DNA from: a virus
IMG/VR virus record: IMGVR_UViG_3300042141_000028
Coordinates: 1 to 38,280 of that record
Strand: one strand, 5' to 3'
Length of the DNA stretch: 38,280 nt
Made by a program: the position numbers and the translations under genes. The notes under the pieces were generated by a model, which saw nothing but the letters and a program-made list of their open reading frames with translations, was not told where the DNA came from and did no database searches. This document shows, piece by piece, positions 1,081-23,060 of the stretch (position 1 is its first letter; the number at the start of each line of letters is the position of its first letter).

Positions 1081-1290
1081 ATGAACGCAAGCCTACACAA
1101 CACCGACAGCAACAGCGCAACAGTTAAGACATTCAAGAAAGACAACACCGACATATTCTCAAAAGATTTTGCGGTGGTATCGGTTCAAGATTCCGACAGA
1201 AACGAGGTCGCTCTATTCTTCTCAAACCTCGCCGAGGTTCTTAATTTCGCCAAAATGATTGAGGAACAGGCTCACAACCTCGCCAAATAG
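1081..1290 (+). CDS. Small early protein, 69 aa, unknown
   Basis: First rightward gene. An AGACAGGAG ribosome site ends 9 bases before the ATG, the leader shared by most early genes here. The product is hydrophilic, without Cys or membrane segments. The C-terminal half (residues 33-69) contains VVSVQDSDRNEVALFFSNL and then FAKMIEEQAHNLA, which look like a short beta hairpin and a helix. I recognise no family. Its stop codon TAG (1288-1290) is the first element of hammerhead ribozyme 1, so ribozyme cleavage would leave this mRNA with a 3' end only about 20 bases past the stop, capped by a GNRA hairpin. Confidence 0.75.
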   Translation: MNASLHNTDSNSATVKTFKKDNTDIFSKDFAVVSVQDSDRNEVALFFSNLAEVLNFAKMIEEQAHNLAK

Positions 1291-1345
1291 TCGAAACCCC
1301 CGCAAGGGGGTAAGGTAGGGGATAGCCTCCCGCCTCTGATGAGAC
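1290..1345 (+). ncRNA. Type II hammerhead ribozyme 1
   Basis: All core parts are present in the type II order. The open stem II 5' strand is GTC (1290-1292). Core GAAA is 1293-1296. Stem III is ACCCCC (1296-1301) / GGGGGT (1306-1311) with a GCAA tetraloop. The cleavage triplet GTA ends at 1312. Stem I runs 1313-1335 (AGG/CCT, an internal loop, then GGG/CCC). Core CTGATGA is 1336-1342, followed by the stem II 3' strand GAC (1343-1345). Cleavage is expected after A1312. Stem II starts on the last base of the upstream stop codon, and the next ATG is 24 bases past the ribozyme. Stem II is short (3 bp), so activity needs testing. Confidence 0.88.
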
Positions 1346-1369
1346 AGGCTAAGAAAGACAGGAGAAGAA

Positions 1370-1990
1370 ATGAAGACAGCAACACGCACCGAGAATCTCT
1401 CGGGAATCGTGACAGCACTAGAAGAGGCTCACGCCTCGATTCGCGAGAAGACAGGCGCCCCTCGGGCGACGATTCTAGTCACTCGCAAGACAGGGCGCAC
1501 AATGGGTCACTTTACCCACGCCAAAATCTGGAAGGCGGGAGAAGAACAGTTTCACGAGATAATGGTATCGGCGAACTATTTCGAGCGAGGCGCCCGCGCT
1601 GTTCTCGGCACCTTGCTACACGAGACCGCTCATTCCCTAGACCTACAGGCAGGGATTCTAGGCGTAACAGGCGACGGCTATCACAACAAAAAATTTAAGG
1701 CTACTGCCGAGGCGCTAGGGCTCACAATCACGCAAGCAAAAGGAATCGGCTACAGCGTGACCGAGGTAGGCGACGAGTGCGCCAATCGGTGGGCGGACGA
1801 GTTAGCGCTAATCGAAAACGCAATGGCACTTATGGCAGACAGCGAGGCAGGTCAAGCAGGCAAGAAGGGCAGAAATAAGAATCTCCACTCGGCGCGGTGC
1901 GGGTGTGGTGGCGTTATCCGCCTCTCGGCGACGGTGCTTGAAAAGTGCGCCCCTAAGTGCGACAATTGCGGGGAGTATTTCCGAGCATAA
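1370..1990 (+). CDS. SprT-like zinc metalloprotease with C-terminal zinc ribbon
   Basis: 206 aa. The HETAH motif (His84, Glu85, His88) is the zinc-binding catalytic HExxH of the SprT/SprT-like family, and His105 in GDGYHNKKFK is the likely third ligand. The C-terminus carries a zinc ribbon (Cys177, Cys179, then Cys197-x2-Cys200). The size and two-part design are typical of SprT-like proteins in actinophages. Relatives act on DNA-bound proteins, but the target here is unknown. GACAGGAG lies 6-10 bases before the ATG. The gene is bracketed by the two hammerhead ribozymes, so its message should be released as a monocistronic RNA beginning near 1313 and ending near 2024. The stop TAA (1988-1990) abuts stem II of ribozyme 2. 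Confidence 0.88.
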   Translation: MKTATRTENLSGIVTALEEAHASIREKTGAPRATILVTRKTGRTMGHFTHAKIWKAGEEQFHEIMVSANYFERGARAVLGTLLHETAHSLDLQAGILGVTGDGYHNKKFKATAEALGLTITQAKGIGYSVTEVGDECANRWADELALIENAMALMADSEAGQAGKKGRNKNLHSARCGCGGVIRLSATVLEKCAPKCDNCGEYFRA

Positions 1991-2053
1991 GGCGAAACCT
2001 AGCCCCCGCAAGGGGGCGACGGTCTCGGGGTAAGTGCCCCGACTGATGAGCCT
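1990..2053 (+). ncRNA. Type II hammerhead ribozyme 2
   Basis: Complete consensus. Stem II 5' strand is AGGC (1990-1993) and core GAAA is 1994-1997. Stem III is ACC (1997-1999) / GGT (2021-2023), an internal loop, then GCCCCC (2002-2007) / GGGGGC (2012-2017) with a GCAA loop. The cleavage triplet GTC ends at 2024. Stem I is TCGGGG (2025-2030) / CCCCGA (2037-2042) with loop TAAGTG. Core CTGATGA is 2043-2049 and the stem II 3' strand is GCCT (2050-2053). Cleavage is expected after C2024. As in ribozyme 1, the stop codon of the upstream gene adjoins stem II. Stems differ in sequence from ribozyme 1 while pairing is kept, which is strong support. Confidence 0.95.
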
Positions 2054-2085
2054 AAAAACTTTCAGACTTAAGACAGGAGAAAAAA

Positions 2086-2412: not shown

Positions 2413-2540
2413 TGAAAACAGCACTCAACAAAGTTTTAGACTTTATGACTGAAGACTCTCCCCGTTTCCTCGTGGCTTTCGCCTCGGTGATTCTGGCAGA
2501 ACTCCTAATCCTGATAAAGTTTTTCCCGCCTCAAATCTAG
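2412..2540 (+). CDS. Small membrane protein, 42 aa
   Basis: ATG at 2412 overlaps the previous stop (TAATG). The N-terminal 18 residues are amphipathic and charged. Residues 19-38 (FLVAFASVILAELLILIKFF) form one transmembrane helix with a short PPQI tail. No holin context is near, since the lysis cassette is at 12-13 kb. The small size and early position fit the host-takeover membrane peptides often found in phage early operons, but the role is unknown. The stop TAG is followed after 7 bases by the three-way-junction RNA element at 2548. Confidence 0.7.
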   Translation: MKTALNKVLDFMTEDSPRFLVAFASVILAELLILIKFFPPQI

Positions 2541-2547
2541 CAAGACA

Positions 2548-2617
2548 GCCCCCGCACCCGATAGCGGGCGCAGGTTCAAGACCTAGCGGGGGCACGATAG
2601 GGGAAAGGTTCCCCTAT
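2548..2617 (+). ncRNA. Structured RNA element A (three-way junction plus hairpin), family not recognised
   Basis: P1 is GCCCCCGC (2548-2555) / GCGGGGGC (2586-2593). Inside it are P2, CCCG-ATAG-CGGG (2557-2568), and P3, AGG (2572-2574) / CCT (2582-2584) with the 7-base loop TTCAAGA. Downstream, after ACG, P4 is ATAGGGGAA (2597-2605) / TTCCCCTAT (2609-2617). CTTAAGACAGGAG follows directly, then the ATG at 2641. Element B (2987-3055) has the same layout with compensatory changes in P2, P3 and P4. It has no hammerhead core. It sits exactly where the hammerheads sit (stop codon, structure, ribosome site), so it may be another self-cleaving RNA, a processing site or a riboswitch. Confidence 0.75.
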
Positions 2618-2640
2618 TACTTAAGACAGGAGAAAAGCAA

Positions 2641-2817
2641 ATGACACTCGAAGAACTACGCAAGGAACTTGCGGACGGTTACAATGCTTGTTTAGAGTCT
2701 GCTCTAAATCAAAACCTAGACAAGAGAGCACGAGATTACTACTCGGGAAAAGCGGACGCAATAATTATCACAATCGGACGCATTGACACGATACTAAATG
2801 AAAGGGTGAACGCCTAA
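2641..2817 (+). CDS. Small hypothetical protein, 58 aa
   Basis: The AAGACAGGAG leader ends 9 bases before the ATG. The product is helical and charged (MTLEELRKELADGYNACLES...), with DKRARDYYSGKADAIIITIGRID in the second half. One cysteine, no membrane segment. No family recognised. It lies between the two copies of the unknown structured RNA, and its stop overlaps the next start (TAATG at 2815-2819). Confidence 0.72.
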   Translation: MTLEELRKELADGYNACLESALNQNLDKRARDYYSGKADAIIITIGRIDTILNERVNA

Positions 2818-2975
2818 TGTGGGACGACGATTTTTTCTCGATACATTTCGACAGTTTCGGAATTACTCTCAACTCAACGCCCTTTTATATCTCACTCTCG
2901 TGGGTGAGCATAATCGTGGCAATGGTGCTAATTATAGGACTTAAGACACTAAGGAGACGCAAGCGCAACAAGTGA
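2817..2975 (+). CDS. Small membrane protein, 52 aa
   Basis: The start overlaps the previous stop (TAATG). An acidic aromatic N-terminus (MWDDDFFSIHFDSFG) is followed by a hydrophobic helix at about residues 24-41 (YISLSWVSIIVAMVLIIG) and a basic tail (KTLRRRKRNK). This predicts an N-out, C-in single-span protein. The function is unknown. A CTTAAGACA word lies inside the gene at 2940-2948, encoding Leu-Lys-Thr. The stop is followed after 11 bases by structured RNA element B. Confidence 0.7.
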   Translation: MWDDDFFSIHFDSFGITLNSTPFYISLSWVSIIVAMVLIIGLKTLRRRKRNK

Positions 2976-2986
2976 GCAAACTCACA

Positions 2987-3055
2987 GCCCCGCACCCTTG
3001 ACAGGGGGCGAATGGAGCGAGACCATAGCGGGGCACGAGGCGGAAAGTATCCGCC
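2987..3055 (+). ncRNA. Structured RNA element B, second copy of the three-way-junction element
   Basis: P1 is GCCCCGC (2987-2993) / GCGGGGC (3028-3034). P2 is CCCT-TGAC-AGGG (2995-3006). P3 is ATGG (3012-3015) / CCAT (3023-3026) with the 7-base loop AGCGAGA. After ACGA, P4 is GGCGGA (3039-3044) / TCCGCC (3050-3055). TTAGACAGGAG then the ATG at 3079 follow. Fixed features shared with element A are a single A between P1 and P2, a single A between P3 and P1, the 4-base P2 loop, the 7-base P3 loop, GCACGA after P1, and GGAAAG or GGAAAGG at the P4 loop. Stem sequences differ but pairing is kept. Confidence 0.75.
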
Positions 3056-3078
3056 CAAGTTAGACAGGAGAAAACAAA

Positions 3079-3423
3079 ATGAGCACGACAGCACAGGTTC
3101 AAGCGGACACACTAAGCCCCGAGGTCACTCGCCTTGTGGTTTCGGATTGGTTCGCTGGTGAATGGCAAATGGTAACAATGAACGACAGCGATAGTTATTC
3201 GCAACTAATGAGCGACGCGATGTTCTACAATAACACCGCCGAACTTTCCGACAAATTGCGCGGAGATTGGGAACACCTAGCCGAGCAAGTGGGCGAACTC
3301 GTAGCCGAGCACGTAAGCGAGACCGCCTCGCTATACATCAAGCAACTTCTCCAGGGCTGGGGTTCGCTACCTTTCGACATCATAGCCCGCGAAGCAATCG
3401 CAACAAAGAACGAAATCAACTAA
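3079..3423 (+). CDS. Hypothetical early protein, 114 aa
   Basis: AGACAGGAG lies about 8 bases before the ATG, directly after RNA element B. The product is acidic, mostly helical and free of cysteine. Residues 25-57 are rich in Asp, Ser and aromatics (GEWQMVTMNDSDSYSQLMSD). Residues 60-95 form a long helical stretch (GDWEHLAEQVGELVAEHVSE). No domain recognised. Similar acidic proteins of this size occur in actinophage early operons; inhibitor or DNA-mimic roles would be speculation. Confidence 0.78.
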   Translation: MSTTAQVQADTLSPEVTRLVVSDWFAGEWQMVTMNDSDSYSQLMSDAMFYNNTAELSDKLRGDWEHLAEQVGELVAEHVSETASLYIKQLLQGWGSLPFDIIAREAIATKNEIN

Positions 3424-3451
3424 CCTAACGACTTAAGACAGGAGAAAAATA

Positions 3452-3925: not shown

Positions 3926-4028
3926 CCTATGTTCTAGTTATGGAGTTCAAACCGTATTAACTAAAGTTAATAACGAAGAGGTAAAGGTCTGCTTTGAGTG
4001 TCTAGTAGCGAGGAAAACCTATGCCTAG
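3918..4028 (+). CDS. Zinc-ribbon microprotein, 36 aa
   Basis: MCDLC (Cys2, Cys5) and CFEC (Cys25, Cys28) make a single zinc ribbon. The start overlaps the previous stop region (ATGTGTGA), and its stop TAG (4026-4028) lies within the next gene, which starts at 4021. It is very short, but the paired knuckles and the overlap pattern argue for coding. Confidence 0.6.
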   Translation: MCDLCSSYGVQTVLTKVNNEEVKVCFECLVARKTYA

Positions 4029-4194
4029 ATGTGGAGTATGTGGGCAGAGATACGGTGACCTCATAATCAAACACGCCTGCCAATGCGAGGACGATTCCCA
4101 AGCCTTAAGACATAACCCAATGTGCGGGGATTGTTTAGTTCCGCTCAACGAGTGTGCGCACAAACCTAACAAGTCAACGAAAGGACGAAATTAA
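4021..4194 (+). CDS. Double-knuckle zinc protein, 57 aa
   Basis: Starts MPRCGVCGQRYGD, with a C-x2-C knuckle at residues 4-7. Further Cys pairs are CQC (20-22) and CGDC (35-38), with Cys45 and two histidines. There are enough ligands for two zinc ions. The start overlaps the preceding gene by 8 bases. A CTTAAGACA word at 4104-4112 encodes Leu-Arg-His. The function is unknown. Confidence 0.65.
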   Translation: MPRCGVCGQRYGDLIIKHACQCEDDSQALRHNPMCGDCLVPLNECAHKPNKSTKGRN

Positions 4195-22851: not shown

Positions 22852-23060
22852 TAGTTTCCTCCTGCAGCCTTACGGGCTTGCTTTAGTGTCTTTCTAGCAT
22901 CAGCAGCGGCTTTTTTAGCACGAGCCAATTCTTTCTTTACATCTTTACGAATCATAATTGCTTCAAATTCTTTATATGGCATAACTGGATTTACGCCCTC
23001 GGCATCACCACTCCAAGGAGAATTTTTCCATTCATCCCAATATGGACGATTTTCTGGCAT
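22851..23060 (-). CDS. Small hypothetical protein, 69 aa
   Basis: MPENRPYWDEWKNSPWSGDA starts with many Trp/Pro. Then a long basic helix (AIMIRKDVKKELARAKKAAA, ARKTLKQARKAAGG) suits nucleic-acid contact or a coiled coil. No family. ATG 23060 is directly after the stop of the upstream gene. Confidence 0.65.
   Translation of the reverse strand: MPENRPYWDEWKNSPWSGDAEGVNPVMPYKEFEAIMIRKDVKKELARAKKAAADARKTLKQARKAAGGN

Follow-up and report, generated by a model that had tools for sequence, protein, structure and literature searches.

The DNA analysed here comprises positions 1 to 38,280 of the virus record IMGVR_UViG_3300042141_000028 (IMG/VR), and this stretch of 38,280 nucleotides is hereafter designated as the window. 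Between several of its genes lie structured RNA elements, namely two type II hammerheads and two elements of a different fold, A and B, whose helices are named P1 to P4, with an additional hairpin P0 in B. These features are as follows:

1289..1353, plus strand: type II hammerhead ribozyme (RF02276, 38.1 bits; gathering 37), before a SprT-like gene (1370-1990)
1990..2057, plus strand: second type II hammerhead (RF02276, 24.0 bits, sub-threshold, with CGAAAC, CTGATGA and every stem present), before the gene 2086-2412
2538..2547, plus strand: leader of A, the upstream gene's stop TAG and single-stranded CAAGACA; predicted cut A2547/G2548
2548..2597, plus strand: element A (models R2, 81.8 bits, and R1, 39.6 bits; fold energy)
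2548-2555/2586-2593, plus strand: P1 of A
2556-2571, plus strand: P2 region of A
2572-2574/2582-2584, plus strand: T-arm-like P3 of A, loop TTCAAGA at 2575-2581
2585 and 2594-2597, plus strand: junction A and tail ACGA of A
2598..2616, plus strand: P4 hairpin of A, 3' of the element and 5' of the ribosome site; sequence variable in homologues
2641..2817, plus strand: gene 3' of element A (58 aa); its relative in L010 has a hammerhead in the equivalent slot
2972..2985, plus strand: P0 hairpin of B, GTGAG CAAA CTCAC, including the upstream gene's stop TGA (2973-2975)
2987..3038, plus strand: element B (R1, 84.8 bits; covariation); predicted cut A2986/G2987
2987-2993/3028-3034, plus strand: P1 of B
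2994-3011, plus strand: P2 region of B
3012-3015/3023-3026, plus strand: T-arm-like P3 of B, loop AGCGAGA at 3016-3022
3027 and 3035-3038, plus strand: junction A and tail ACGA of B
3039..3055, plus strand: P4 hairpin of B (fold energy)
3079..3423, plus strand: gene 3' of element B (114 aa); orthologues elsewhere are also preceded by an element

From 5' to 3', element A is composed of P1 (GCCCCCGC/GCGGGGGC), the P2 hairpin, P3 (AGG-TTCAAGA-CCT), a single A, the second strand of P1, ACGA and P4, and element B of P1 (GCCCCGC/GCGGGGC), P2 (CCCT-TGACAG-GGGG), P3 (ATGG-AGCGAGA-CCAT), again a single A, the second strand of P1, ACGA and P4. Both were found where a preliminary description had placed them, and both fold better than dinucleotide shuffles (RNAfold; z = -6.0 for A, with 0 of 200 shuffles equally good, and z = -3.0 for B, with 1 of 200). 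When the covariance model R1, built from B-type homologues, was run on the whole window, it recognised B and A (E = 1.3e-7 for the latter) with no further match. While the minimum-energy fold of A gives P3 a 5-bp stem and a loop of 3 bases, homologues favour 3 bp and a 7-base loop, so that the 7-base loop first proposed for this hairpin is supported in A as well. P2, initially drawn as a 4-bp hairpin, is indeed a hairpin but consists of three conserved base pairs and one U-A or U-G.

Homologues were gathered from pattern scans of viral contigs, from relatives of the SprT-like protein and with two covariance models. The pattern scans returned 5, 70, 64 and 79 stretches, with chance matches among the sets of 70 and 64. 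Overall, the family comprises 109 distinct cores and 323 occurrences at 174 phage loci, which partly overlap or come from one contig, and two to four copies often occur in one phage. Four subtypes were seen. The A type combines a P1 of 8 bp with a P3 of 3 bp, and the B type a P1 of 7 bp with a P3 of 4 bp, preceded by P0, whose stems covary in homologues and whose loops are mostly GNRA. The C type reads GCCCCCG...CGGG-TTCACAA-TCCG-A-CGGGGGC and the D type GCCCCGC...CCGA-TTCGAT-TCGG-A-GCGGGGC; BLAST searches of phage records with these two types gave no match. Positions 2970-3037 of the window have matches of 85-86% in two phage isolates (OX376641 and OX376640). These are the Planktophila phages F5 and E7, whose host, Ca. 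Planktophila LanE-43, belongs to the order Ca. Nanopelagicales (PMC10202952), and to which the phage of the window is related (86.5% identity for the portal and 80% for the terminase). No host copies were found, since R1 had no match in any of 148 genomes from an actinobacterial class, and a scan of bacterial genomes for the core pattern gave 47 matches, none of them with P1.

Covariation was assessed in a gap-free alignment of 23 B-type homologues, with 15 pairs and thus 345 cells. Pairing was kept in 344 of them (99.7%, against 85.2% in shuffles), 10 of the 15 pairs showed changes in both partners, against 3.9 in shuffles, and covariation was scored at 0.424, as compared with 0.138 in shuffled alignments and 0.025-0.048 when partners were slid by 1-3 columns. 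All three helices P1, P2 and P3 covary: P1 occurs as GCCCCGC, GCCCTAA, GCCCGCC, GTCCCGC, GCCTTGC and GCCTCCG, and P2 and P3 vary likewise. Compensatory changes had first been noticed between A and B in P2, P3 and P4. P4, the terminal hairpin, is conserved in neither sequence nor size. A and B are members of a real, previously unclassified RNA family. This agrees with the preliminary description, which had seen in them a covarying three-way-junction RNA of a possible new family and had proposed a covariance-model search; searches of this kind, run with two covariance models, gave matches across phage loci. Neither of the two outcomes named there as contradicting the proposal, loss of pairing in homologues and a strong match to a known family, occurred.

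For the A, B, C and D types alike, Rfam accepted no family at gathering or at permissive thresholds, in keeping with the initial failure to recognise one. Plastid-ycf2, DUF3800-IX and Pseudomon-1 all fell below the Rfam threshold, and twister, twister-sister, pistol, hatchet and HDV-like ribozymes were absent from the four types at E up to 10. The elements are not hammerheads either, RF02276 matching neither 2548-2617 nor 2987-3055 with E values of up to 10; they occur in the same phages, in the same slot and before orthologous genes as type II hammerheads (RF02276; PMC3088659), but lack the hammerhead core and differ in sequence and fold. The best Rfam score of a B-type homologue came from salivarius-1 (RF03030; 23.7 bits, E = 0.0043, against a gathering score of 50). 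This RNA, for which we know of no established function, is likewise a three-way junction with a 7-bp P1 starting with GCC, but the loop drawn for its P3 does not resemble a T-loop, and it does not have the 12-layer geometry described below. Membership in mascRNA-menRNA (RF01684) was also rejected (19.1 bits against a gathering score of 42.5). Mammalian mascRNA and MEN beta RNA are released from long transcripts through RNase P cleavage, receive CCA and serve the 3' end of a non-coding RNA. Like the elements, they are tRNA-like folds within a longer transcript; the RF01684 model spans P1, P2 and the T arm of element A and, at its sub-threshold score, aligned its T arm GGGUUCaAgUCCC to AGGUUCAAGACCU, with the TTCAAGA loop.

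The elements occupy a defined place, the slot between a stop codon and the Shine-Dalgarno site of the next gene. In 130 of 137 elements, P1 is preceded at 6-38 nt (most commonly 6, 7, 8 or 11) by the end of a long reading frame's stop codon, and the start codon of the next gene follows at a median of 41 nt 3' of the element. The usual order in the A, C and D types is the stop codon, CAAGAC(A/C) and P1, and the downstream gene has its own Shine-Dalgarno sequence, usually GACAGGAG. The hammerhead at 1289..1353, located in the same kind of slot, would be the functional counterpart of the elements. No third recurrent cutting element was seen when the remaining long intergenic slots were inspected by eye. 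A side observation concerns hammerhead-like elements in which CTGAAGA replaces CTGATGA, which were found in the same slots in L005 (3546-3610) and L081 (about 3966-4030) and fit the CUGANGA consensus.

Hammerheads are established self-cleaving RNAs and also occur in tandem within polycistronic phage-like RNA (PMC3088659). Their exchange with the elements was followed by clustering the proteins encoded 3' of each element or hammerhead and by reading the sequences one by one. In seven gene families (five under a stricter hammerhead filter), a hammerhead precedes the gene in one phage and an element precedes the orthologue in a relative. The proteins concerned may be nearly identical: those following the hammerhead of L082 and the A-type element of L088 are 96% identical, and those of a second exchange, between L017 and L025, are 97% identical. 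In the case of element A itself, the L010 counterpart of the following gene, preceded by a hammerhead, encodes a protein with 36% identity. Because hammerheads and elements replace each other before orthologues, a shared job, the cutting of polycistronic phage mRNA between genes, is supported, and this replacement is the strongest sign suggesting that the elements may mark a cut. It also strengthens the earlier remark that the elements share the slot of the hammerheads. As regards the SprT-like protein (window 1370-1990; phrog_6361), its gene was preceded by a hammerhead in all 11 distinct clustered cases and by a tRNA-like element in none.

Judged from its predicted architecture, the fold is tRNA-like, P1 corresponding to the acceptor, P2 to a small D arm and P3 to the T arm, and the anticodon arm is absent. 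The acceptor-like helix has 7-8 bp and the T-arm-like hairpin carries the loop TTCRAGA in many members. Loops of A- and B-type P3 (TTCGAGA, TTCAAGA, TGCGAGA, AGCGAGA) conserve C56 and R57; the C-type loop TTCACAA lacks the A58 of a true T-loop. Helix lengths trade off, a P1 of 7 bp going with a P3 of 4 bp and a P1 of 8 bp with a P3 of 3 bp (Fisher p = 4.5e-5, relatedness uncorrected). As a consequence, P1 and P3 add up to 11 bp and, together with one junction mismatch and assuming an inferred stacking of P1 on P3, to 12 layers in 57 of the 58 members found by descriptor. In a wider set of 82 parsed members derived from the covariance models, 71 have 12 layers, 8 have 11 and 3 have 10, the 11 deviating members comprising several parsing slips and a few true exceptions such as L094. 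The comparison with tRNA and with the tRNA-like domain of tmRNA has its limits: the 7-bp acceptor, the T arm and a reduced body, as in tmRNA, are shared, but the elements have neither an anticodon arm nor CCA and are missed by tRNA detection, with 0 genes reported by ARAGORN and RF00005 giving no match with E values of up to 10.

In tRNA, RNase P likewise measures 12 bp, the distance from the T-loop to the 5' end being its ruler (PMC11143913). Hairpins made of acceptor, T-stem and T-loop suffice as substrates and are cut at the correct site (PMC11143913, PMC4919913), and the GGU in P15 of RNase P is the pairing partner of the discriminator and of C74/C75 (PMC11143913). Among the 82 parsed distinct members, position 73 is a purine in all and position 74 is C in 81, and the 1-72 end pair is G-C in 74, G-U in 7 and C-G in 1. 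N-1, either A or C, is in no case complementary to N73 (AA 58, CA 20 and AG 4 for N-1/N73), so that the helix ends at the predicted cut site. Position 75 is G, T or A in 81 of 82 members and C only in L085 (ACCA), RCCA thus being avoided. Since position 75 is not C, only two of the three RCC contacts are possible. Some RNase P substrates require the RCCA contact (PMC12710915), but it is not obligatory for every substrate, and the missing C75 weakens the RNase P reading without excluding it.

Taken together, the elements are probably tRNA-like mRNA-processing sites, cut by host RNase P 5' of P1 and doing the job of the hammerheads. Beyond the observed fold, covariation, position, 12-layer geometry and hammerhead exchange, we infer the cutting, RNase P as its agent and an effect on expression, along the following lines. 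Each element would fold as a reduced tRNA with an acceptor helix, a D-arm-like hairpin, a T arm and an R-C tail; host RNase P would dock at the T-arm end, count 12 layers and cut the polycistronic phage mRNA directly 5' of P1, that is, before G2548 in A and G2987 in B. The corresponding 5' ends are predicted at positions 23036 and 23538 of OX376641 (plus strand) and at positions 1434, 1794 and 2208 of OX376640 (minus strand). The upstream message would then end a few bases past its stop codon (in B, within the P0 hairpin), and the downstream message would start with a paired G and a stable tRNA-like fold, followed by P4 ahead of the ribosome site. Type II hammerheads of related phages would serve the identical purpose in those slots. 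In favour of RNase P, the conserved features (C56, R57, G1-C72, R73, C74 and the 12 layers) largely coincide with its determinants. Counting against it, position 75 is not C, C-type loops lack A58, no tRNA model matches, and P0 of B ends one base before the predicted cut, where an unpaired leader would be better suited to the RNase P protein. Tandem tRNAs separated by RNase P do occur with spacers down to 2 nt (PMC11143913).

The preliminary description had suggested tests for a riboswitch or a ribozyme; with a T-arm-like P3, a 12-layer stack and R73-C74, an RNase P substrate is likelier. A new class of self-cleaving ribozymes built on a tRNA-like fold and interchangeable with hammerheads is nevertheless the main rival, to which we attach a low but appreciable probability. 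It would account for the hammerhead slot and the exchange, the slot argument alone fitting it equally well, and for the strong conservation of several unpaired bases inside a subtype (A3: TTNACAG, CGAGA, ACG), and self-cleavage would make these RNAs categorically new. However, linkers, P2 size and P2 loop differ between subtypes, the invariant positions (C56, R57, the junction A, G1-C72, R73, C74) are mostly RNase P determinants, with few remaining to form a catalytic core, a ribozyme would have no need of the 12-layer rule, and no Rfam ribozyme matched.

Somewhat more doubtful is a role that involves no cut, the elements acting as stabilising or insulating structures (exonuclease block, ribosome insulation) or as a docking site for a tRNA-elbow-binding protein. 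The very stable folds, the flanking hairpins P0 and P4 and the constant location 3' of a stop codon and 5' of a ribosome site would suit such a role, which leaves unexplained the tRNA geometry, the purine-C tail and the unpaired N-1/N73, as well as the presence of self-cleaving hammerheads in the same slots. RNase Z-like 3' processing after position 73, in addition to or instead of the 5' cut, would set the element free in the form of a small RNA. An encoded CCA is inhibitory to many RNase Z enzymes, and both the tRNA-like fold and the non-C at position 75 in 81 of 82 members would be compatible with this proposal, which we regard as improbable, C74 being conserved in 81 of 82 although RNase Z needs none. 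Finally, chance or convergence of GC-rich hairpins is refuted by the covariation; the 109 distinct cores, a descriptor search with 56 distinct matches in real DNA (a few of them by chance) against 1 in shuffled sequence of equal length, and the lack of model matches in the 148 actinobacterial-class genomes also speak against it.

Neither Rfam 15 nor the literature searched, which was mainly open-access, contained a description of the element. RNase P is already known to act on tRNA-like mRNA structures in single cases, and its substrates other than tRNA include polycistronic mRNAs (his), T4 gene 32 mRNA, phage C4 antisense RNA and M3 RNA (PMC11143913). Like the elements, these are phage or operon RNAs, but they are single cases and not a repeated, covarying family found before many phage genes and swappable with ribozymes. 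What appears to be new is a dedicated, repeated and covarying tRNA-like family serving as phage mRNA punctuation and exchangeable with hammerheads. If RNase P processing of these sites is confirmed, phages of a highly abundant order of freshwater bacteria would split long mRNAs gene by gene, using two unrelated cutting signals that evolution freely swaps, a self-cleaving ribozyme and a decoy tRNA for host RNase P. Such a system would be the phage counterpart of mitochondrial tRNA punctuation, would provide a concrete reason for the presence of hammerheads in phage operons and would make RNase P a regular participant in phage gene expression. The two cultured phages that carry the element make direct testing possible.

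Two further observations concern sequences adjacent to the elements. The B-type P0 sequence TGTGAGGCAACTCACA (window 2972-2986 and homologues) has the TGTGA-N6-TCACA form of a CRP/FNR-type operator, and similar dyads precede promoter-like sequences with TTGACA-like -35 boxes in the related contigs L021, L055 and L101. A purely DNA operator of the CRP type is disfavoured for P0, since members pair via unrelated stems (GTCTA/TAGAC, GGCCT/AGGCC), and an RNA hairpin is preferred. The near-invariant string TTAAGACAGGAG, present in the window at, for example, 2622-2633 and 3432-3443, constitutes the Shine-Dalgarno region of many early genes, whether or not an RNA element is present.
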